NCBI GenBank assembly: GCA_030537735.1
Contig: JAUNVG010000002.1
Coordinates: 1 to 64,000 of the forward strand
DNA length: 64,000 nucleotides
Direction: 5' to 3'
Origin: Actinomycetaceae bacterium
Lineage (GTDB): Bacteria; Actinomycetota; Actinomycetes; Actinomycetales; Actinomycetaceae
The first letter of the stretch is position 1; each line of letters begins with the position of its first letter. The notes under the pieces were generated by a model, which worked only from the letters and a program-made list of their open reading frames with translations, was not told where the DNA came from and did not search any database. The position numbers and the translations under genes were made by a program. This document shows positions 5,457 to 16,533 of the stretch, in pieces.

Positions 5457-6785
5457 GTGATTTTAGGGAAAATACGGCAGTTAGCGTCCGATAAAGTATG
5501 GCTGGTTCCCCTACTTGCCTCCCTCCTGGCCGCGATCGCCGCCGTGGCGCTCAGCGCCGTTCGCATCGACCGGGAGCACTGGATTTCTAGCTACCTGTGG
5601 CCCGGAGACACCGCGGCGGCTGCCGACATGCTCAGCTTCATAGCTTCGTCCATGCTCACGGCCTTAACCACTGTCATATCGATGACGCTAATCGTGTTGC
5701 AGGTGGCGGCCGGACAGTTTTCCCGCCAACTATTGCGCGACTACATCCGGTCCAAAGCGGTCAAAGGGATCTTCTCCGTTTTCACCGCGGTGTTCGTCTA
5801 CGCCCTCGTACTACTGCGGTCGGTGGAGGCAGAAGGAATAGACGAACCTCCCCAGCTGGCAATGACGCTGGCGATGATTTTGGTGCTGGTGTCGCTGGGA
5901 ACATTCGTGTGGTACGTGGCGCGAGTGGTCGACATGGTGCGAGTGGACTCCATTATCGAAGCGGTGTCGACCCGGGTGGAGGAGCTTTACAAGCGTCACC
6001 GTAACGCTTGGGAGGAAACCGCGCAGGCACCTGAAGTTCCCGACCATGCGCGCCCGATTCGCGCCGGCGACAGCGGGTTCGTGCGGGAAGTGTTCACCAA
6101 GTACGCGGCGCGGTGGGCGAAGAATCACGATGCGGTGGTGGTGGCGACGGTAGCGCCGGGAGACCCGGTGGTGACCGGGCAGGTGGTGGCGTGGGTGTTT
6201 GGACGTGACCAGAGCCTGGAGGAGGAGGTGGAGCTTCCAAAGGACATGGTGGGGATTGATCCTGAACGCACGGCGGAGGCTGATATCCGCCTGGGAGTGC
6301 GGCAGCTGTCTGACATTGCGGTGCGAGCCATGTCGCCGGGAGTGAACGACCCGACCACTGCGGTGCACGCGGTGAACCAGGCGATTTCGTTGCTGCGGAT
6401 GGCGGCGGAAGACCCCTTGGCGAATGAAGTTGTTAAAGCCGAGGACGATGGGCGGGTACTGGCGTTCGCACCTTCACCGAAAGCTATCGACTTCATTCAT
6501 GAGATTGTCGGGCCGGTGCGCAGGTACTCGGGTGCGGAACCGGCGGTTTTAATCCAGTTACTGCGGCTGCTGGCTGTGGTGGAAGAAGGCGCGCAGGAAA
6601 GTGAAGTGGCGCAGGTGATCGCGAAGGAGCGACGCCGGATAGTGGAGACCGCGCGGAACCAAATGCCGCACCCGGACGATGCGCAGTGGGTGGAGAGTTT
6701 GGCGTCGGCAGATGCGGTGCGCGAAGCCAGCCGAGTGCGTGGGCCCCATGCTGACTTGGTGGAGTCTGACGAGGACGGGGACTAG
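5457..6785 (+). CDS. DUF2254 family integral membrane protein
   Basis: A 442-residue protein with four hydrophobic segments in the first ~155 residues: LVPLLASLLAAIAAVALS, one around SSMLTALTTVISMTLIVL, one around IFSVFTAVFVYALVLL and one around MTLAMILVLVSLGTFVWYV. A long soluble C-terminal part follows. The pattern and the motif DIAVRAMSPGVNDPTTAVHAV are typical of DUF2254, a widespread family of unknown function. A GTG start is used with CGGGAGA upstream. It appears monocistronic, with its own promoter candidate, between the two-component module and the ROK-MocA gene. No enzymatic motif is visible; I do not assign a function. Confidence 0.85.
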   Translation: MILGKIRQLASDKVWLVPLLASLLAAIAAVALSAVRIDREHWISSYLWPGDTAAAADMLSFIASSMLTALTTVISMTLIVLQVAAGQFSRQLLRDYIRSKAVKGIFSVFTAVFVYALVLLRSVEAEGIDEPPQLAMTLAMILVLVSLGTFVWYVARVVDMVRVDSIIEAVSTRVEELYKRHRNAWEETAQAPEVPDHARPIRAGDSGFVREVFTKYAARWAKNHDAVVVATVAPGDPVVTGQVVAWVFGRDQSLEEEVELPKDMVGIDPERTAEADIRLGVRQLSDIAVRAMSPGVNDPTTAVHAVNQAISLLRMAAEDPLANEVVKAEDDGRVLAFAPSPKAIDFIHEIVGPVRRYSGAEPAVLIQLLRLLAVVEEGAQESEVAQVIAKERRRIVETARNQMPHPDDAQWVESLASADAVREASRVRGPHADLVESDEDGD

Positions 6786-6820
6786 CGGTCTTGCGGTTGA
6801 GGTTGGGCATGGCCTGGGGA

Positions 6821-6842
6821 AAGGTAATGTGATTGTTACCTT
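6821..6842. promoter_or_regulatory. Inverted repeat, candidate operator ahead of the ROK-MocA gene
   Basis: Arms AAGGTAA (6821-6827) and TTACCTT (6836-6842) are perfect inverted repeats 8 bp apart, a spacing that puts the half-sites on one face of the helix. A second perfect palindrome, TCAATATTGA, lies at 6881-6890. Both sit in the 182-bp gap before the ROK-type regulator, and ROK repressors commonly bind their own upstream region. The first could instead be a weak hairpin ending the DUF2254 gene, but it has no T-tract. Confidence 0.45.
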
Positions 6843-6967
6843 CGGTTCCTAGACCAGCTAGGTGGTGTGAGGTAGGATACTCAATATTGAAGAGCATTTT
6901 ATAAAGGTACTTCGATAAAAGGTTTTTGGGAGCAGCCACCCGAAGCACACACCGTAGTGAGTAGGAA

Positions 6968-9331
6968 ATGAGTACTCCAGATCGCACCTGTACAACCGAA
7001 CGCCAAGAGAAACTGGCTAAAATCTGGGCAATACTGCGCGATCGCAGTATTGGTTCCAAGGGCGATAAGAACCCGGGGTGCTCAATTGGAGATTTGGTTG
7101 ATAGCTCGGGGTTGTCTCGCCCCACAGTTATGTCCGTCATCGGTGACCTGACTGACTTGAAACTAGTTGAACAAATCGAACAAAGTAGTGAAACACGAGT
7201 TGGACGGCCCGCCACCACTTGGAGAATTTCTCCGCAAGCGGGGATCATAATCGCAGTCGACGCGCTGGTCTCAACCGCCCTGGTAACCGTGGTATCGCTT
7301 AGTGGGAAAGTCCTGGACGCACAAGCCCACGACCTCACCACCACTCCGCCGACGCGTATCACCGAGCTTGCCACCATCATTAAAGAAACCGCTACCGCGT
7401 ATAAGCAGTACGGCAAACTGCACCACGTGGCTATCTCCACCACCGGAATTATCGATTCTGACGGCACCGTCATTCACGCTGACTTGCTGCGAGCTCTAGA
7501 TGGCATAAACCTGGCAGCGGAGATCGGTAGCCGGGTAGGGTGCAACGTCACCATTGACAACGACATTAACTCCGCCGCATACGGGGAGTTCTGTCAACTA
7601 CGCGACCAGGGGGAACTGGCTGCGGACGGGGACTTGCTCTTCGTTAACCTAGCGCGCGGGGTCAATACCGGGCTGATAATCGGAGGGAAAATTCGGCGCG
7701 GACAGAGTTTTACCGCGGGGGAAATCTCCGACGTACTTGACCTGCGACTGGATAAAGAAAAGCTCCCCGATCACAGTTGGGTGGAGCGCGCCTCTCAAAT
7801 TGTGGCTTCGGTTGCCAGCGTTATCGATCCGGATCGGATTGTGGTGTCAACACCTACCGCCAGGCTCACCAAAACGATTGAGGACGTAATTACCCAGGTG
7901 CGAAAATCGGACGCCGCGACCCGCCCCTACGGTGGGGACGGGAAGCGCTTAAATATCGACATCGCCCAATTGGGGTGGGGGGCGTCTGTGACCGGGGTTG
8001 CGCACGTGGCTCTAAAGAAAGCTAACCAAAGTTTACTGGGAGTCAGTACTCAACCTGCGACGCAGCTGCAAGACCTTCACATAATCCAGGCAGCACTCAG
8101 GAAAGGACAACACACCACCTTGAAGAAGACCCAGAACCCATTAGAAACCCTGCGTATTGGGGTGGTGGGATGCGGCGCTCGCGCCCCCCTTGCGTTGGCG
8201 GCGGAGAGGCCGGAAAACGGCGGATTAATCACCGCGGTATGTGAACCTCACCCGGACGCGGTGAAACGCGTTGAAGCACAGTTGCAGCGCGACCCCAAGA
8301 CGGTGACCATCACCCGGACTGTGAAGGAAATGATTGACGCCGGGGTGGATGCCGCCTTCGTCACCTCACCGGATGACACGCACACGGAAGTGACCTGCGA
8401 ACTGCTGGAAGCGGGGGTGGCGGTCTACCTGGAAAAGCCGCTGGCCATAACCATGGAGGGCGCTAACGCCATACTTGAAACCGCCTACCGCACCGGTACG
8501 AAACTGTATGTCGGACACAATATGCGGCATATGAACGTGGTGCGCACGATGCGTGAACTCATACGGGAAGGGCGTATCGGGCAGGTAAAAGCGATTTGGT
8601 GCCGACACTTCGTGGGGTCCGGAGGTGACTTCTACTTCAAGGACTGGCACGCAGAACGCGCCCGCGGAACCGGATTGCTGCTGCAGAAGGCAGCACACGA
8701 CATTGACGTCATGCACTGGTTAGCTGAAGCTCACACCGAAGAAGTCGTAGCCATGGGTGGGCTCACCCTATATGACCAGATTGAAGATCGAGCAGACCAC
8801 TCCGAGGAACTCATGCGCGAGTGGTACAGCCTCGATAACTGGCCGCCACTGAGCCAAACAGGTCTAAACCACACCATTGATGTGGAGGATCTGTCGATGA
8901 TGCTTATGCGGATGGATACCGGGGTGTTTGCCTCCTACCAGCAGTGTCACTACACCCCCGACTACTGGCGAAACTACACCGTTATCGGCACCGAAGGACG
9001 CATTGAAAACTTCGGTGACGGGGCCGGTGGGCACATCAAACTGTGGAATAAACGCACCCACTACAACCCCGATGGGGACGAAACTTTCCCCATTATCGGA
9101 GACGCGGAAGGACACGCAGACGCAGATGTCCTCACCGTCACCGAGTTCATGCGGTTCATACGGGAGGGAACCCCTACCGACACGAACCCGCTGGGAGCCT
9201 GGTACGCGGTAGCGGCCGGAATCCAAGCGACCGAATCACTAAGGGATGGAGCCACCCCGCGCACAGTGACCCCGCCGCGCGAAGACATCATCCAATACTT
9301 CAACAACAACCAAACCCCTACTAAGAAGTAA
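6968..9331 (+). CDS. ROK-type regulator fused to Gfo/Idh/MocA oxidoreductase
   Basis: A 787-residue fusion in one uninterrupted frame. Residues ~10-85 form a winged helix (IGDLVDSSGLSRPTVMSVIGDL). Residues ~95-365 form a ROK domain that keeps a DNDINSAAYGEF segment but lacks the DxGGT phosphate loop, the GH metal site and the CxCGxxGC zinc cluster, so sugar-kinase activity is unlikely. After a linker, a Rossmann domain starts at about residue 397 (IGVVGCGA), with the MocA motif EKP (K490) and the HDID catalytic region (H577). The C-terminal half would oxidise or epimerise a sugar or sugar acid using NAD(P). The start has AGTAGGAA just upstream. A sugar ABC importer follows at 9.4 kb, so the protein probably couples sensing and first-step catabolism of the imported sugar. 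The exact sugar is unknown. A possible internal TTG start at 8120 could yield the oxidoreductase alone. Confidence 0.88.
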   Translation: MSTPDRTCTTERQEKLAKIWAILRDRSIGSKGDKNPGCSIGDLVDSSGLSRPTVMSVIGDLTDLKLVEQIEQSSETRVGRPATTWRISPQAGIIIAVDALVSTALVTVVSLSGKVLDAQAHDLTTTPPTRITELATIIKETATAYKQYGKLHHVAISTTGIIDSDGTVIHADLLRALDGINLAAEIGSRVGCNVTIDNDINSAAYGEFCQLRDQGELAADGDLLFVNLARGVNTGLIIGGKIRRGQSFTAGEISDVLDLRLDKEKLPDHSWVERASQIVASVASVIDPDRIVVSTPTARLTKTIEDVITQVRKSDAATRPYGGDGKRLNIDIAQLGWGASVTGVAHVALKKANQSLLGVSTQPATQLQDLHIIQAALRKGQHTTLKKTQNPLETLRIGVVGCGARAPLALAAERPENGGLITAVCEPHPDAVKRVEAQLQRDPKTVTITRTVKEMIDAGVDAAFVTSPDDTHTEVTCELLEAGVAVYLEKPLAITMEGANAILETAYRTGTKLYVGHNMRHMNVVRTMRELIREGRIGQVKAIWCRHFVGSGGDFYFKDWHAERARGTGLLLQKAAHDIDVMHWLAEAHTEEVVAMGGLTLYDQIEDRADHSEELMREWYSLDNWPPLSQTGLNHTIDVEDLSMMLMRMDTGVFASYQQCHYTPDYWRNYTVIGTEGRIENFGDGAGGHIKLWNKRTHYNPDGDETFPIIGDAEGHADADVLTVTEFMRFIREGTPTDTNPLGAWYAVAAGIQATESLRDGATPRTVTPPREDIIQYFNNNQTPTKK

Positions 9332-9403: not shown

Positions 9404-10705
9404 ATGTTGAACCGACGTAACTTCCTAGCGGTGCTGGCCTTTGGGACGACCTCAGCCGCCCTCGCCGCCTGTTCGAAGGACTCAGGAACGTCTGCGGGCG
9501 CGGGGAGTGCGGAGACGCTCAGCCCCGACACCAAGGCGGAACTAACTTTGGCGTACTGGGATAAGAACCAGTCCCCGACCATTGAAGCTAACTTGGCGAG
9601 CTTCAAAGAAAAGTACCCCAACATCACGGTTACCACGAACCTGTCCGGATACGCCGACTACTGGAAGAAACTGCGTACCCAAGCAGAAGGTAAGAACCTG
9701 CCTGACGTGCTGTGGATGAACGGTCCCAATATCCAGCTATACGCTGGCAACGACATGTTGGAACCGCTTGATGTAGTTACCGACATGGGGATTAAGTGGG
9801 AAGACTACCCCAAGGCACTAGTTGACCTATATACCTTTGACGGCAAGCACTACGGAATCCCCAAGGACTTCGACACCGTGGGAGTGTTCTACAACAAGAA
9901 GATCTTTGCTGACGCTGGAGTAGAGCCGCCGCAGTCGGGGTGGACGTGGGAGGACTTCCACGAAAAGGCCAAGGCGATCTCTGATTGGGGTAAGGATAAG
10001 GGGATTTGGGGCGCGGCCTGCCCGGTGGCTTCGAACCAGAGTACCTACTACAACACCATTTACCAGGCGGGTGGCTACGTCATTAAGGATGGGAAGTCAG
10101 GGTATGACGATCCTAAGACCATTGAGGGCCTCAAGTGCTGGGTCGACTGGATTGCCGACGGCTCGGTAGCTCCACCGGACGTAGTTGCTGACGTCAAGCC
10201 CAACAATATGTTCACCGGGGAAAAGTCCGCGATGTTCTGGTCCGGTGACTGGATCGCAGCGGAAATCGCGGAAGCCTTTAAGGGGCGGGAAGAAGATATT
10301 GAGGTAATCGAACTACCCAAGAAGGAAAAGCAAGCCACTATTATTCACGGCCTGGGGTGGGCAGTATCGCAGCACTCCACTAACAAGGCGGCGGCGAAAG
10401 CCTTGGCAGCGCACATGGCGTGTAAGGAAAGCCAGGAGGTGGAAGCCGCGAACGGTACTGCTATTCCCGCGTTCAACGGCACCCAAGATCCTTGGCTGGC
10501 AACCTACCCGAAGTGGAACTGCAAGGTATTTATCGACGGCGCCGACCAGTACGCAGTGCCCTACCCGGTTTCTAAGAATACGGAAGCTTGGGCCAGCACA
10601 GAAGGCGACTACGTGATCCCCGCATTTAGTGGGACGAAACCCGTTGAAGAAGCAGCTAAGGAACTAGCTGCCGCGATGAACGAAGCCCTAGCTAAGGAGA
10701 AGTAA
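9404..10705 (+). CDS. Sugar ABC transporter substrate-binding lipoprotein
   Basis: A 433-residue extracytoplasmic solute-binding protein of the type 1 (maltose/oligosaccharide) family. The N-terminus carries a twin-arginine motif (NRRNFLAV) and a lipobox ending LAAC with the lipidated Cys23, so it is probably a Tat-exported lipoprotein. The mature part shows family landmarks such as LTLAYWDKN, the PDVLWMNGPN stretch and YGIPKDFDTVGVFYNKKIF. The ATG at 9404 is chosen because AAAGGAG precedes it by 4 bases; the upstream TTG at 9389 lies inside that site. The stop overlaps the next ATG by one base (TAATG). The ligand is probably a mono- or oligosaccharide or polyol processed by the MocA-type enzyme upstream. 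Confidence 0.9.
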   Translation: MLNRRNFLAVLAFGTTSAALAACSKDSGTSAGAGSAETLSPDTKAELTLAYWDKNQSPTIEANLASFKEKYPNITVTTNLSGYADYWKKLRTQAEGKNLPDVLWMNGPNIQLYAGNDMLEPLDVVTDMGIKWEDYPKALVDLYTFDGKHYGIPKDFDTVGVFYNKKIFADAGVEPPQSGWTWEDFHEKAKAISDWGKDKGIWGAACPVASNQSTYYNTIYQAGGYVIKDGKSGYDDPKTIEGLKCWVDWIADGSVAPPDVVADVKPNNMFTGEKSAMFWSGDWIAAEIAEAFKGREEDIEVIELPKKEKQATIIHGLGWAVSQHSTNKAAAKALAAHMACKESQEVEAANGTAIPAFNGTQDPWLATYPKWNCKVFIDGADQYAVPYPVSKNTEAWASTEGDYVIPAFSGTKPVEEAAKELAAAMNEALAKEK

Positions 10706-11676
10706 TGAAAGCCGCCGCCGTGGCGGGCAAAACCGCCCGCCACCCCGGCGCGGCGGGGCCTGGAGGCAGGCCCCTTTCGAAGAAACGCCGGGGTAATCCC
10801 ACCAGCGTCGGAGCTTGGCCGATCCTATTCTTAGGACCGATGATGCTGGGTGTCGCCATTTTCTACTACTGGCCGATGCTGAAGAACCTGATCGTCTCAG
10901 TCCAGCAAACCAATGCGTTTGGTGGGAACCCCGAATTCGTTGGACTGGATAACTACCGCGAGGTACTTTCCACGCCCGATCTGGGATCGGCGGTTAGTAA
11001 TACCCTCCTTTACACGGTGATCGTACTGCTGGGGATCCCCTTATCGGTGCTGATAGCTTCCATGATTGAGTTACCCGGGCTGCGCGGTAAAAGTCTTTAC
11101 CGCACTATGTACTTCATGCCGTACCTGGCAATGCCGATGGCGGTAGCGCAAGTGTGGAAACTGGTTTACAACGGCAACTTTGGTTTAATCAACCAAGGTC
11201 TACGGGCAGCAGGCGTGAGTGACCCACCATACTGGCTGGTCACCCCCGGGTGGGCACTACTGGCAGTGGCGCTGTTTGGAATCTGGGCGTCGATTGGATT
11301 TAACGTAATCATCCTTTCAGCGGGACTGAAGTCGATCCCGCGTGAACTATACGAAGCGGCCTCCATTGACGGAGCCTCCACTTGGAAACAGTTCCGCTCC
11401 ATCACCATTCCGCTGCTCACGCCCTCGATATTCTTCCTCACCATCATGACCACGATCGCGGGATTCCAACTTTTTGACGCCCTCTACGCCATGATCGGGC
11501 GAGACAACCCGGCGGAGCCCTACTCGCGTTCCCTGGTCTACCTGTTCTACCGCGAAACCTTCGTCAACTCCAACCAAGGGGCGGGGGCCGCCATCGCCAT
11601 GGTTATTTTCGCGCTGGTGGCGGTAGTTACCTTCATTCAGTTCTTAGGGCAAAAGAAGTGGGTGAACTATGTCTAG
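10705..11676 (+). CDS. Sugar ABC transporter permease (MalF-type)
   Basis: A 323-residue inner-membrane permease. A basic, glycine-rich cytoplasmic leader (residues 1-40) precedes six hydrophobic segments. The EAA loop that contacts the ATPase reads YEAASIDGASTWKQFRSITIPLL, near residues 217-239. It is translationally coupled to the binding-protein gene (1-bp overlap) and overlaps the second permease by 8 bp. Together the two permeases form the heterodimeric channel. No ATPase gene is present in this operon, which is common in actinobacteria where a shared MsiK-type ATPase serves several importers. Confidence 0.9.
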   Translation: MKAAAVAGKTARHPGAAGPGGRPLSKKRRGNPTSVGAWPILFLGPMMLGVAIFYYWPMLKNLIVSVQQTNAFGGNPEFVGLDNYREVLSTPDLGSAVSNTLLYTVIVLLGIPLSVLIASMIELPGLRGKSLYRTMYFMPYLAMPMAVAQVWKLVYNGNFGLINQGLRAAGVSDPPYWLVTPGWALLAVALFGIWASIGFNVIILSAGLKSIPRELYEAASIDGASTWKQFRSITIPLLTPSIFFLTIMTTIAGFQLFDALYAMIGRDNPAEPYSRSLVYLFYRETFVNSNQGAGAAIAMVIFALVAVVTFIQFLGQKKWVNYV

Positions 11677-12595
11677 TCAAGTTATCCCAGCGAAACCAGA
11701 AAACCTCGCTGCTGTGCCGAAGGGTAAAACGAAGGAACGTAGCAAGAAATCAAACACTAGTTTCATTCGTGTCTTACGCGGGCAAGTGAGGTTCTTGCCG
11801 ATCCACTTTTTCCTATTCCTGGGCGGGCTGATAATGGTCTTCCCATTCGTCTACCAGATCCTCATGAGTCTATCGACGAACGCGGAAATCCAATCCGTGC
11901 CCCCCACCTTCATCCCCGAACAGTTACGCTGGTCCAACTACGCCGAAGTATTCACGCGGCTACCCTTCCTGTCACAGTTTTGGACCTCGGTGCTAATCAC
12001 CACCCTACGCACGGTGGCGCAACTGATCCTGTGCTCCATGGCTGGATACGCCTTCGCACGCATGGGGTTTAGAGGGCGTTCACTACTCTTCGGACTGCTA
12101 CTAGCCATCCTCATGGTTCCCGGACAGTCATACCTAATCGGCCAGTACCAGTTGGTGCGCGATATGGGACTGCTGGAAACCCCGTGGGGAATCGTGCTGC
12201 CCGGATTCTTCTCCGCCTTCGGAGCTTTCCTGATGCGCCAATCCTTCATGGGGGTACCTCCGGCCCTAGAAGAAGCCGCGCGCCTGGACGGATGCAACCC
12301 GTGGCAAACATTTTGGAAAGTCATGTTCCCCGTGGTGCGTCCGGGACTATTCGCGGTCATGATTACAACCGTGCTGTGGTCGTGGAATGACCTGCTGTGG
12401 CCGTTGATCGTCACTACGCGGGAAGAAAACATGCCGCTGTCGGTGGGAATCGCGACCCTCGCGGGTCAGCACTCATCTGAATACGCCCTCATGATGGCAG
12501 CGTCAGTGATGGCTATGGCTCCGATCTTCCTGATCTTCTTCACCATGCAAAAACGGGTGATTGAAGGTTTGGCTGCTTCGGGTCTGAAGGGGTAG
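11669..12595 (+). CDS. Sugar ABC transporter permease (MalG-type)
   Basis: A 308-residue permease partner of the preceding gene. A roughly 35-residue basic leader is followed by six hydrophobic segments. The EAA loop EEAARLDGCNPWQTFWKVMFP lies in the last third and the final segment ends with MQKRVIEGLAASGLKG, the standard MalG-type C-terminus. The ATG lies within the last codons of the previous permease (8-bp overlap), so the two are co-translated. No ATPase follows; the next gene is tdh after a hairpin. Substrate as for the binding protein at 9404. Confidence 0.9.
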   Translation: MSSQVIPAKPENLAAVPKGKTKERSKKSNTSFIRVLRGQVRFLPIHFFLFLGGLIMVFPFVYQILMSLSTNAEIQSVPPTFIPEQLRWSNYAEVFTRLPFLSQFWTSVLITTLRTVAQLILCSMAGYAFARMGFRGRSLLFGLLLAILMVPGQSYLIGQYQLVRDMGLLETPWGIVLPGFFSAFGAFLMRQSFMGVPPALEEAARLDGCNPWQTFWKVMFPVVRPGLFAVMITTVLWSWNDLLWPLIVTTREENMPLSVGIATLAGQHSSEYALMMAASVMAMAPIFLIFFTMQKRVIEGLAASGLKG

Positions 12596-12666: not shown

Positions 12667-12702
12667 TATGGGGTCCCATGAAGAAGAAAGAAGGCAGTGA
12701 AG

Positions 12703-13734
12703 ATGAAAGCACTGGCGAAGACTAAACCCGGACCGGGACTGGAACTCATTGACGTGCCTGAACCGCAGGTGGGACCCAACGACGTGTTAATCCGGGTGAT
12801 GCGGACCGGGATCTGCGGCACTGACGTACATATCGACCGGTGGGATCCGTGGGCGGTTAAGACCGTGCAGACGCCGCTGATTCTGGGGCATGAGTTCTGC
12901 GGGGAAATTGTCGAGGTCGGTTCCGAAGTTAGCGACCTAAAGACCGGGATGTTCGTGTCCGGAGAGGGTCACTTCGTGTGTGGGCGGTGCCGCGCTTGCC
13001 TGGCGGGGCGACGCCACCTGTGTCGCAATACTAAGGGGATCGGCTACCACGTTGATGGCGCGTTCGCGCAGTACTTCGCGATGCCGGCGGCGAACGTGTG
13101 GGTCCACCACGTGCCGAACCTGGACCCGGACGTAGCGGCGATTTTTGACCCCTTCGGAAACGCGGTGCACACGGCACTGCAGTTCCACACCCTGGCCGAG
13201 GACGTCCTCGTATCGGGTGCTGGGCCGATTGGGATTATGGCGGCCCTGGTGGCGCAGTTCCAAGGCGCGCGCCACGTGGTGCTCACTGACCTTTCAGATG
13301 AGCGACTCGAACTGGCTAGGTCCTTGGGGATCCAGCACACGGTGAACGTGGGGCGGGAGAACCTGGCGGAGGTGTTTTCGCGGTTCAATATGAAAGAAGG
13401 CTTCGACATTGGATTGGAAATGTCGGGAGCCGCCCCAGCCCTTAAGTCCATGATTGCGAATATGACGCACGGGGGACGCATCGCGTTGCTGGGAACACCC
13501 ACCCACGAAATCGACTTGGACCTGTCCACCGTGATTTTCAATATGCTCACCATCCAAGGGGTGACGGGGAGGCAGATTTTCGAAACCTGGTACATGATGA
13601 CGGCCCTGCTGCAGTCGGGGCTGGATATTTCCGGGGTGATCACTCACCGCCTTCCCTTCACCGAGTTTGAAGAAGCTTTCCAGGTCGCGGGTGATGGGCG
13701 CAGTGGGAAAGTGGTGATGAACTGGGAGGAGTGA
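12703..13734 (+). CDS. tdh: L-threonine 3-dehydrogenase
   Basis: Zinc-dependent medium-chain dehydrogenase of 343 residues that oxidises L-threonine to 2-amino-3-ketobutyrate with NAD+. It matches the well-known E. coli enzyme along its whole length. Catalytic zinc ligands are C38, H63 and E64; the structural zinc cluster is C93/C96/C99/C107; the region AAIFDPFGNAVHTAL and the Rossmann motif SGAGPIGIMAA are characteristic. The ATG at 12703 is preferred over the GTG at 12697 because AAGG lies 8 bases before it. The next enzyme of the pathway, kbl, lies 1.6 kb downstream on the same strand, separated by a fic gene. Threonine would therefore be degraded to glycine and acetyl-CoA. Confidence 0.95.
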   Translation: MKALAKTKPGPGLELIDVPEPQVGPNDVLIRVMRTGICGTDVHIDRWDPWAVKTVQTPLILGHEFCGEIVEVGSEVSDLKTGMFVSGEGHFVCGRCRACLAGRRHLCRNTKGIGYHVDGAFAQYFAMPAANVWVHHVPNLDPDVAAIFDPFGNAVHTALQFHTLAEDVLVSGAGPIGIMAALVAQFQGARHVVLTDLSDERLELARSLGIQHTVNVGRENLAEVFSRFNMKEGFDIGLEMSGAAPALKSMIANMTHGGRIALLGTPTHEIDLDLSTVIFNMLTIQGVTGRQIFETWYMMTALLQSGLDISGVITHRLPFTEFEEAFQVAGDGRSGKVVMNWEE

Positions 13735-13824: not shown

Positions 13825-13894
13825 TTAAGAGCAGTTTTGCGCTAACTTAGTTTCTAACTAGGGCAGGGCAGTTTGCGATTCGCTGGAGGTGAAA

Positions 13895-15202
13895 ATGGGG
13901 CAATACAAAGAACACCTCTGGGAAGGTAATGAAAGCGCGCCTTTGAAGCGGGATCGCAGGTCGGGGCAGTACCGTTCTTTCACGCCTGGCACCCTGACTG
14001 ACTTGGCACTGCCCATACCCACGCCCCTTGCACTTCGGGCAGCGAAACTAGAAAACCGCATCCAAGCTTTCCCCACCTACCCTGAAGCGGCGGGAGTGGA
14101 ATCTCTCAGTCGTCTGCTTGTGCGTAGTGAGGCGATGGCTTCTTCTTACATAGAAGGCTTGCAAGTATCAGCAAGGAAAGTGGCAGAGGCGGAACTTCAA
14201 CGAGAGTCGCAAGCGGTAGAAAAACTCTCGCACACGGCAGCGCAACAGGTTGCCGCTAATATCGCGATTATCGACCAAGCCATGGGGCAGCTTGCCACAG
14301 GTGAGGAAATCACGGTCGCAGACATCGAGGCTTTGCAATATCGTCTGCTGGCAGCGGAAGGTGCGGATCCGAAGAATCTTGGTTTACGGAAGTTTCAAAA
14401 CTGGGTAGGCGGTAGCGGATACCACCCCTTGGAAGCCGAGTTCATTCCTCCACCACCACAGGAAGTGCCGCGGCTAGTGCAAGACTTAGCGCACTACGCT
14501 TCAGGTGCCACGCATGGAACACTGATTCAGTCCGCATTGGTACACGCACAGTTCGAAACCATCCACCCCTTCAGCGACGGAAACGGGCGTGTCGGAAGGG
14601 CCTTGATTCATACTATTTGGCGTCGCCGCGGCCTCGAATCCGCCGCCGTCATACCCGTCTCAGCGGCGCTGGCAACTCGTTCTAAGCAGTACGTGGCGGG
14701 CTTAACCGCTTTGCGCACGACTGCAGAGCCGTCCTCGCCGGAATGGAACGAGGACGTGGCGCGCTGGTTGGAAGTGTTTTTCGACGCCACCGAAACAGCT
14801 TTGATGATTGCCCAGCGCTTTGCCGAAGACATCGCTGACTTGAAGGAAAACTGGCGCGTACGACATGAAGAATATGGTCAAAAGCTAAGCGCGAGGGCGC
14901 TACGCGCGGACTCAACAGCCGTGCGCCTACGCGACGCTCTACCTGCGATGCCGATGTTCACCAGCTCCTTGGCGCAGGAGCGTCTAGCTGTCAGTTCGGC
15001 GGCCGCGAGGAACGCCTGCGGGACGCTGCAGGAGGCGGGAATCATTACACAGGTGTCGATCGGGCGGGGAGTGCGGGGCTGGTACGCACCTGAGATCTTC
15101 GAAGTGTTGAACATCTACGAGCGCCAACTTGCCTCCACCCAATGGGACACGCGGGCCGCGACCCCCAGCCGACCGACCCCAAACCGGATCGGCGGACACT
15201 GA
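13895..15202 (+). CDS. Fic-domain protein (probable AMP transferase)
   Basis: A 435-residue protein with the Fic active-site loop HPFSDGNGRVGR (His224 first), which transfers AMP from ATP onto a target hydroxyl in this family. An N-terminal helix carries the inhibitory motif S83-x3-E87-G88, so it belongs to the self-restrained class with the inhibitory helix in the same chain. The N-terminal region and the C-terminal winged-helix-like part (residues ~345-420) match the common ~370-430-residue bacterial Fic/DUF4172-like architecture. ATG 13895 is chosen because GGAGG lies 5 bases upstream; the GTG at 13889 overlaps that site. It lies between tdh and kbl on the same strand. No separate antitoxin gene is adjacent. 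The target is unknown. Confidence 0.9.
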   Translation: MGQYKEHLWEGNESAPLKRDRRSGQYRSFTPGTLTDLALPIPTPLALRAAKLENRIQAFPTYPEAAGVESLSRLLVRSEAMASSYIEGLQVSARKVAEAELQRESQAVEKLSHTAAQQVAANIAIIDQAMGQLATGEEITVADIEALQYRLLAAEGADPKNLGLRKFQNWVGGSGYHPLEAEFIPPPPQEVPRLVQDLAHYASGATHGTLIQSALVHAQFETIHPFSDGNGRVGRALIHTIWRRRGLESAAVIPVSAALATRSKQYVAGLTALRTTAEPSSPEWNEDVARWLEVFFDATETALMIAQRFAEDIADLKENWRVRHEEYGQKLSARALRADSTAVRLRDALPAMPMFTSSLAQERLAVSSAAARNACGTLQEAGIITQVSIGRGVRGWYAPEIFEVLNIYERQLASTQWDTRAATPSRPTPNRIGGH

Positions 15203-15315: not shown

Positions 15316-16533
15316 ATGGACGCCAAACTGCGGGAGCGTTTCACCGCCGAACTACAGCAGTTACGGGATGAGGGCTTGTATAAGGAAGAAGCCGCCCTCA
15401 CTACCGCCCAAGCCGCGCACGTAGGTGTCGAGGACGGTCGCGAAGTTCTAAACCTGTGTGCCAATAACTACCTGGGGTTAGCTAACTCCCCGGTGCTGAT
15501 TGAAGCGGCGAAGAAAGCCCTGGACGAGTGGGGTTTTGGGATGGCGTCGGTGCGTTTCATCTGTGGCACCCAGACCCTGCATACGCGGCTGGAGCGCACC
15601 CTGACGGAGTTCTTCCACCCCGAAGACGCAGACGAATGGGACACCATTTTGTACTCCTCCTGCTTCGACGCCAACGGTGGGCTGTTCGAAGTGCTCGCCG
15701 GGCCGGAGGACGCCATCATTTCCGATGAACTAAACCACGCCTCCATCATTGACGGGGTGCGCCTAACTAAAGCCCAACGCTTGCGCTACCGCAACCGCGA
15801 CATGGCTGACCTGGAGGCGAAACTGATTGAAGCTAAGGACGCGCGCACCCGCATCATCGCCACCGATGGAGTGTTCTCCATGGACGGGTACGTCGCCCCG
15901 ATTGATGAGATCTGTGAGTTGGCGGCCCGCTACGACGCGCTGGTGATGGTGGATGACTCCCACGCGGTGGGGTTCACTGGCGCCACCGGGGCGGGAACCC
16001 CGGAGTTGTTTGATCGACGCAGCGAGGTTGACGTCCTCACCGGTACGCTCGGCAAAGCCCTGGGCGGGGCCAGTGGTGGGTATACGTGTGCGCGGCGTGA
16101 GGTGGTGGAAATGCTGCGGCAACGCTCCCGCCCCTATTTGTTCTCTAACTCCCTGGCGCCCTCCATTGCGGCGGCGGCGTTGGCAACCGTGGAACTATTG
16201 CGCGACTCCAGTGACCTGCTGGAGAAGTTGCGGGAAAATACCGCGTATTTCCGCCGTCAGATGGTGGCCCGCGGGTTTGAGATCCCGGAATCTGACCATG
16301 CGATTGTGCCGGTGATGATTGGGGATGCGGTAAAGGCCGCGCAGATGGCGGATGCGATCTTGGCGCGCGGCGTTTACGTGCGGGCGTTTTCCTTCCCGGT
16401 AGTACCTAAAGGTAAGGCGCGTATTCGAACGCAAATGTCGGCCTCCCTAACTCGCGCTGACCTGGATAGGGCGATTGAAGCGTTTGAACAAGCCCGAAGC
16501 GAGTGGGAAAACAAGCACTCTAGGGAGATTTAG
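15316..16533 (+). CDS. kbl: 2-amino-3-ketobutyrate CoA ligase (glycine C-acetyltransferase)
   Basis: PLP-dependent alpha-oxoamine synthase, 405 residues. It cleaves 2-amino-3-ketobutyrate with CoA to glycine plus acetyl-CoA. Landmarks include [20 protein letters not shown], the cofactor-binding [10 protein letters not shown] and the Schiff-base lysine K247 in [11 protein letters not shown], which corresponds to E. coli Lys244. The ATG follows GGGGAGGA with about 5 bases between. It completes the threonine degradation pathway begun by tdh, but is not immediately adjacent because fic intervenes. The convergent minus-strand ORF that follows overlaps its 3' end by 14 bp. Confidence 0.95.

Follow-up and report, generated by a model that had tools for sequence, protein, structure and literature searches.

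A ROK-type regulator fused to a Gfo/Idh/MocA oxidoreductase, with a predicted operator and a probable internal translation start

A single gene in a 64,000-nucleotide stretch of DNA from a Gleimia-like Actinomycetaceae bacterium (hereafter called the window) encodes a ROK-type regulator joined to a Gfo/Idh/MocA oxidoreductase. We propose that the product is an autoregulating ROK-type repressor carrying an NAD-dependent sugar enzyme, and that free enzyme is made in addition from a start codon inside the gene; we give this model as a whole a probability of about 0.6. Both halves belong to known families. The combination, the operator and the internal start seem undescribed, and a literature search, with thin coverage of subscription journals, found no paper on a ROK-MocA fusion. 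To our knowledge, few enzymes are fused to their own repressor, the textbook case being PutA.

Architecture and distribution of the fused gene

The features of the locus are as follows.

6883..6920, + strand: predicted operator, tandem CTTnnGAAAG with overlapping matches at 6883-6904 and 6898-6919, at least 47 bp upstream of the start codon
6968..9331, + strand: fused ROK-Gfo/Idh/MocA gene, 787 codons
7067..7180, + strand: winged helix-turn-helix, residues 34-71, with a conserved SRPT (alignment; Pfam MarR_2-type, slightly under the cut-off)
7250..8038, + strand: degenerate ROK domain, approximately residues 95-357, without DxGGT and zinc cysteines, with N198, D199 and E252 present
8039..8146, + strand: linker, residues 358-393 (AlphaFold model; alignment), helical at 371-378 and disordered at 386-391
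8099..8107, + strand: internal Shine-Dalgarno (SD)-like sequence, AGGAAAGGA, within the codons for the conserved 'KG'
8120..9331, + strand: predicted free oxidoreductase of 403 aa, from TTG 8120
8150..9253, + strand: Gfo/Idh/MocA Rossmann and C-terminal domains, residues 395-762, with EKP and QKxxHDID retained
9404..10705, + strand: solute-binding lipoprotein of a sugar ABC transporter (Pfam SBP_bac_8/SBP_bac_1; ORF listed from TTG 9389)
10705..11676, + strand: sugar ABC permease 1
11669..12595, + strand: sugar ABC permease 2
12697..13734, + strand: L-threonine 3-dehydrogenase, Tdh (NCBIfam NF003808, 522 bits against a cut-off of 380)
15316..16533, + strand: glycine C-acetyltransferase, Kbl (synteny)

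As claimed in a preliminary description of this DNA, the fused gene is one continuous frame. It is open over all its codons and devoid of internal stops, and in it a winged helix is followed by a degenerate ROK domain, a short linker and a complete Gfo/Idh/MocA domain. Pfam searches bore out the domain reading given there, and the EKP and HDID motifs of the second half are present. The ROK signature (PF00480) matches residues 95-253 (E 6e-18, 65.8 bits against a cut-off of 22.9), and this match is confined to the N-terminal half of the profile (positions 2-155 of 294). Helix-turn-helix models score above the cut-off in other fused proteins and below it in the window protein. In the enzyme half, GFO_IDH_MocA (PF01408) covers residues 395-517 above the cut-off (E 2.5e-18) and GFO_IDH_MocA_C3 residues 525-680 (E 2.4e-21); a second C-terminal GFO_IDH_MocA match spans 529-762, and the C-terminal signatures PF22725 and PF02894 also exceed their cut-offs.

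A motif check agreed with the earlier statement that the ROK part lacks both the DxGGT loop and the zinc cysteines. DxGGT is absent from all the fused proteins, and a ROK-family sugar kinase was rejected as a candidate on account of this missing phosphate-binding loop. The zinc-binding motif CxCGxxGC, which is usual but not universal in ROK-family repressors, is absent from every fused and adjacent ROK protein examined, but several further ROK proteins encoded in the window's genome have it. Thus, of the hallmarks of ROK-family transcriptional repressors, the protein has the winged helix and the ROK domain and lacks the zinc motif, and we call it a degenerate, ROK-type regulator because of the latter. 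N198, D199 and E252, positions that line the ligand site in ROK sugar binders, are invariant in 37 aligned fused proteins.

The best sequence and fold matches of the ROK half are TM1224 (2hoe), 4ija (Z 31.5) and Lmo0178 (5f7q, Z 29.2). With ROK-family repressors such as Mlc, NagC, XylR, Lmo0178 and RokB, the fused protein shares the winged helix and the ROK fold, a location next to sugar-uptake genes and an inverted-repeat-like operator. It differs from them by the missing zinc cysteines and DxGGT, by the full oxidoreductase at its C-terminus and by the tandem CTTnnGAAAG arrangement of its operator.

The second half has the Rossmann and alpha/beta C-terminal domains, the EKP lysine and the catalytic His of the Gfo/Idh/MocA family. 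In the aligned fused proteins E489, K490 and P491 of the EKP motif (residues 489-491) and D578 of HDID (residues 577-580) are invariant, and H577 is nearly so. This half has the fold and the EKP motif of the SqgA sulfoquinovosidases (8qc3, 8qc6), 1,5-anhydrofructose reductase and levoglucosan dehydrogenase, and its (Q/E)KxxHxxD stretch aligns with sulfoquinovosidase 8qc2; it is set apart from known members by an identity of about 20% and by the attached regulator. The SqgA-type NAD-dependent glycosidases rank first structurally (8qc3, Z 32.7, 3.0 A over 337 residues), yet several entries are tied at Z 32-33 and dehydrogenases lie within 1 Z. Judging from its motifs, this half looks active and is predicted to have kept its catalytic function as an NAD-dependent sugar oxidoreductase or glycosidase. 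The AlphaFold model comprises two well-folded parts (mean pLDDT 83); with a pTM of 0.54, the position of one half relative to the other is unreliable.

A survey turned up 41 loci with this fusion, spread over 34 genomes (Actinomycetaceae, Propionibacteriaceae, Flexivirga and one more). Homologues are therefore not always encoded as two genes, the outcome that the preliminary description had named as speaking against the fusion, although some relatives do have separate genes. Within the window's family, the fusion is present in 9 of 213 genomes, and many of the rest have the enzyme gene only. The fusion occurs in 23 of the 198 Propionibacteriaceae genomes, seven of which harbour two copies, and Flexivirga (L084/L222) and L245 account for two additional genomes. 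Carriers identified by title include Actinomyces, Cutibacterium avidum, C. porci, C. namnetense, Acidipropionibacterium, Arachnia and Tessaracoccus. No relative was found on viral contigs; plasmids harbour stand-alone homologues only, annotated, where annotation exists, as plain Gfo/Idh/MocA oxidoreductases.

The ROK halves of the main lineages are only about 30-44% identical to each other. For the ROK half, 11 of 12 pairs give Nei-Gojobori dN/dS ratios of 0.09-0.25 and the remaining pair gives 0.50; the range for the enzyme half is 0.03-0.29. These ratios indicate that both halves are under purifying selection.

Gene neighbourhood and predicted operator

The sugar importer reported earlier to adjoin the gene is indeed there: a binding protein and two permeases are encoded directly downstream, in the window as at 29 of the 39 main-clade loci. 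The binding protein probably starts at ATG 9404, which is preceded by AAAGGAG and thus has the better SD sequence, rather than at TTG 9389; its N-terminus (window 9404-9490) displays a twin-arginine-like RRNFL signal and a lipobox. No ATPase gene is present among the listed ORFs of the window's cluster. Actinobacterial sugar importers of this class often use one shared ATPase.

Genes for Tdh and Kbl lie further downstream at 15 loci in several genera, and the importer is missing in some cases (L185, L187, L201). In Actinomyces, other MocA-type enzymes are often encoded downstream instead. The tdh and kbl genes are direct neighbours in most relatives examined; in the window a Fic/DOC-family gene (13889-15202) stands between them. 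An L-serine dehydratase gene is found divergently upstream of the locus in Cutibacterium. From the Tdh-Kbl and serine dehydratase neighbours, one may speculate that the substrate is a glycosyl-threonine or glycosyl-serine. Directly upstream of the fused gene, on the same strand, the window has a gene for a DUF2254 membrane protein (5457-6785), of which no homologue was found beside the fused gene in relatives.

Six Propionibacteriaceae loci (L211, L213, L214, L215, L219, L221) form a second, paralogous ROK-MocA fusion group without the internal start. All are near a melibiase-like gene (PF02065), and three are near a different ABC importer on the opposite strand, neighbours that hint at alpha-galactosides.

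An expectation-maximisation search of the regions upstream of 27 lineage representatives yielded the motif CTTacGAAAGnacCTTTCgtAA, with a log-likelihood of 222.6 against 66-74 in eight shuffled sets. Confident sites precede the fused gene in 26 of the 27 lineages; the window operator contains TTTTATAAAGGTACTTCGATAAAA at 6897-6920. When neighbourhoods of about 19 kb were scanned, high-scoring matches were found almost only ahead of the fused gene, and a 24-bp operator pattern, allowing up to three mismatches, occurs once in the genome. Within the neighbourhoods examined and this one-pattern genome search, the regulator looks local. In 15 of the 27 lineages, against about 10% expected by chance, a TTGAC element lies 16-49 bp ahead of the motif on its upstream side. 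In the window, a consensus promoter scan revealed no clear -35/-10 or consensus promoter on the + strand near the operator.

The conserved predicted operator, which falls in the region 6786-6967 already pointed to in the preliminary description, argues for an autoregulated operon that would include the downstream ABC importer, and it lends support to the earlier proposal that the protein regulates the importer operon. Two split relatives, L147 and L152, were left out when the motif was built; it nevertheless occurs 33 and 57 bp, respectively, ahead of their separate ROK genes. At L209 it lies 34 bp ahead of the binding-protein gene. Since split relatives share the operator, the covalently attached enzyme appears dispensable for regulation, and the fusion is predicted not to be required for that of the operon.

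Evidence for an internal translation start

In the main clade, the linker carries the protein motif KGxHxxM. At the DNA level it consists of AAAGGA (or AGAGGA, GAAGGA, ACAGGAG, AGGAGG) and, after 9-12 nt, ATG or TTG. Among 32 fused genes, the start position is occupied by ATG in 28, by TTG in three (the window, L143 and L199) and by CTC in one; L220 has GTG. The residues encoded by the SD-like sequence vary (K, R, E, T or N) and the purines are retained.

The codon for Gly380 is GGA in 24 of 31 species, which are related, so that these counts are not independent; the corresponding share is at most 34% at 53 other conserved Gly columns and 14% gene-wide. Among 253 conserved four-fold degenerate columns, no other shows strong conservation of an A or T in third position. 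Given the low identity between ROK halves, little unselected codon identity is expected there.

The site also persists where the regulator does not. In L212 (Cutibacterium modestum), the ROK half has a stop, and the linker SD, the ATG and the enzyme frame are intact. L216, a metagenome-assembled genome that also has broken transporter genes, has lost the ROK half and retained the SD-like sequence and ATG, and the enzyme-only L217 and L218 have GAAGGAG at 12-nt spacing from ATG.

Other observations are less clear-cut. The SD duplex energy was not significant relative to synonymous recoding (1 of 32 genes below 0.05), and a spacing of 12 nt between SD and start is long. In a scan for an SD core plus a start codon, the internal site ranks within the top three of 759 columns; residues 644-645 score equally high, because V-E-D residues are fixed there. 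The His of KGxHxxM is conserved as well, so part of the motif may reflect constraint on the protein. The internal start is missing in the Arachnia paralogue group and Flexivirga. On balance, the retention at nucleotide level of both the AAAGGA-like element and the start codon suggests that free enzyme is probably made too, and we consider an internal translation start somewhat better than an even bet.

Origin and possible mode of action

In some relatives, the ROK protein and the enzyme are encoded by two neighbouring genes. L088 and L152 show a 4-bp overlap (ATGA) between the two, which would be the obvious precursor state of the fusion. The enzyme tree unites 38 fused genes with two frame-broken fusions and a few enzyme-only or adjacent-gene entries, and the Flexivirga fusion is placed beside adjacent-gene relatives. 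One cluster of the ROK tree holds 39 fused ROK domains, two broken ones and one badly extracted long-branch entry; Flexivirga L222 and L245 belong to a separate group that also contains the adjacent genes L113 and L090. This separation of the Flexivirga-type fusions from the main clade indicates at least two independent fusion events. The window gene clusters, with moderate support, with genes of Actinomyces and Propionibacteriaceae and not with other Gleimia enzyme genes, a position that points to horizontal transfer. The ROK half is frame-broken with an intact enzyme half in L212 and L198, and in L220 the enzyme half is damaged as well; these three are natural losses of the regulator.

Our model can be outlined as follows. 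A two-gene operon, its genes adjacent or in some relatives overlapping, would have given rise to the fusion, in which the enzyme gene's former start site would have survived in the main clade. The winged helix would bind the tandem sites at 6883-6920, just downstream of the operon promoter, and repress the protein's own gene and the importer genes behind it. Repression would be lifted by a sugar or a derivative of one, which the ROK domain most likely binds, and the enzyme half would process the imported substrate and so remove the inducer. As the codon-level evidence suggests, the mRNA would probably yield some full-length repressor-enzyme and additional 403-aa enzyme. The ROK domain is favoured as the sensor because its presumed ligand-site residues are invariant and because the operator is kept where the genes are separate. 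It is doubtful, although conceivable, that fused and free enzyme form mixed oligomers whose DNA binding is tuned by the amount or ligand state of the free enzyme.

If, alternatively, only the 787-residue protein were made, the fusion would simply hold repressor and enzyme at 1:1. The non-significant SD energy test, the existence of fusions without an internal start codon (the Arachnia paralogues and Flexivirga) and the partial conservation of KGxH as protein all speak for this reading, which we regard as a minority possibility; against it stand the Gly380 GGA codon, which is far out of line with the rest of the 54 conserved Gly columns, the retention of ATG or TTG in the start-codon column and the internal site kept by ROK-less or ROK-broken alleles. 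A somewhat less probable reading is a trigger enzyme, in which substrate or NAD(H) on the oxidoreductase half would switch DNA binding by the ROK half. Trifunctional PutA unites an autogenous DNA-binding repressor and a catabolic dehydrogenase in one polypeptide (PMC5293562). The fused protein shares this combination, with domains unrelated to those of PutA, and similar coupling is possible by analogy. As in a trigger enzyme, a DNA-binding domain and an enzyme, active by prediction from sequence, are in one polypeptide; the link is conserved over two families with the enzyme half intact, the fusion evolved at least twice by our trees, and the conserved linker helix and KGxHxxM could couple the domains. 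However, the operator common to relatives with separate ROK genes implies that coupling via the enzyme can be dispensed with, the ligand-site residues of the ROK half are retained, the predicted linker is partly disordered and the overall pTM is low. ROK-based sensing thus fits at least as well.

The MocA half might instead be a dead sensor domain with no enzyme function, as in yeast Gal80, a regulator with the Gfo/Idh/MocA fold. Beyond this precedent, there is a weak Gal80p_C-like Pfam match (E 0.011), but the EKP lysine and the HD motif vary hardly or not at all, dN/dS is very low and close orthologues occur as separate, stand-alone genes, making this very unlikely. BzdR, like the fused protein, is a regulator that joins a DNA-binding domain to an enzyme-derived domain (PMC3602430); unlike BzdR, the fused protein has a ROK domain as well, and its enzyme half looks active. 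Finally, other Gleimia orthologues are stand-alone, as expected if an assembly error or chance read-through had joined two genes here. The number of fused loci in many genomes, the single grouped clade of fused ROK domains and purifying selection argue that the fusion is no artefact, leaving this explanation a negligible chance; the genome survey led us to reject an assembly artefact.

Automatic annotation may capture just one half of such fused proteins. If mixed oligomers do form, they would represent a stoichiometric sensor that arose when two genes fused and the old start site was kept. The operator and the probable internal start allow the purpose of the fusion to be tested, namely coupling of catalysis to DNA binding versus tied production. 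One family displays a series of stages, from adjacent genes and overlapping genes to repeated fusions, at least two, and later loss of the repressor half.
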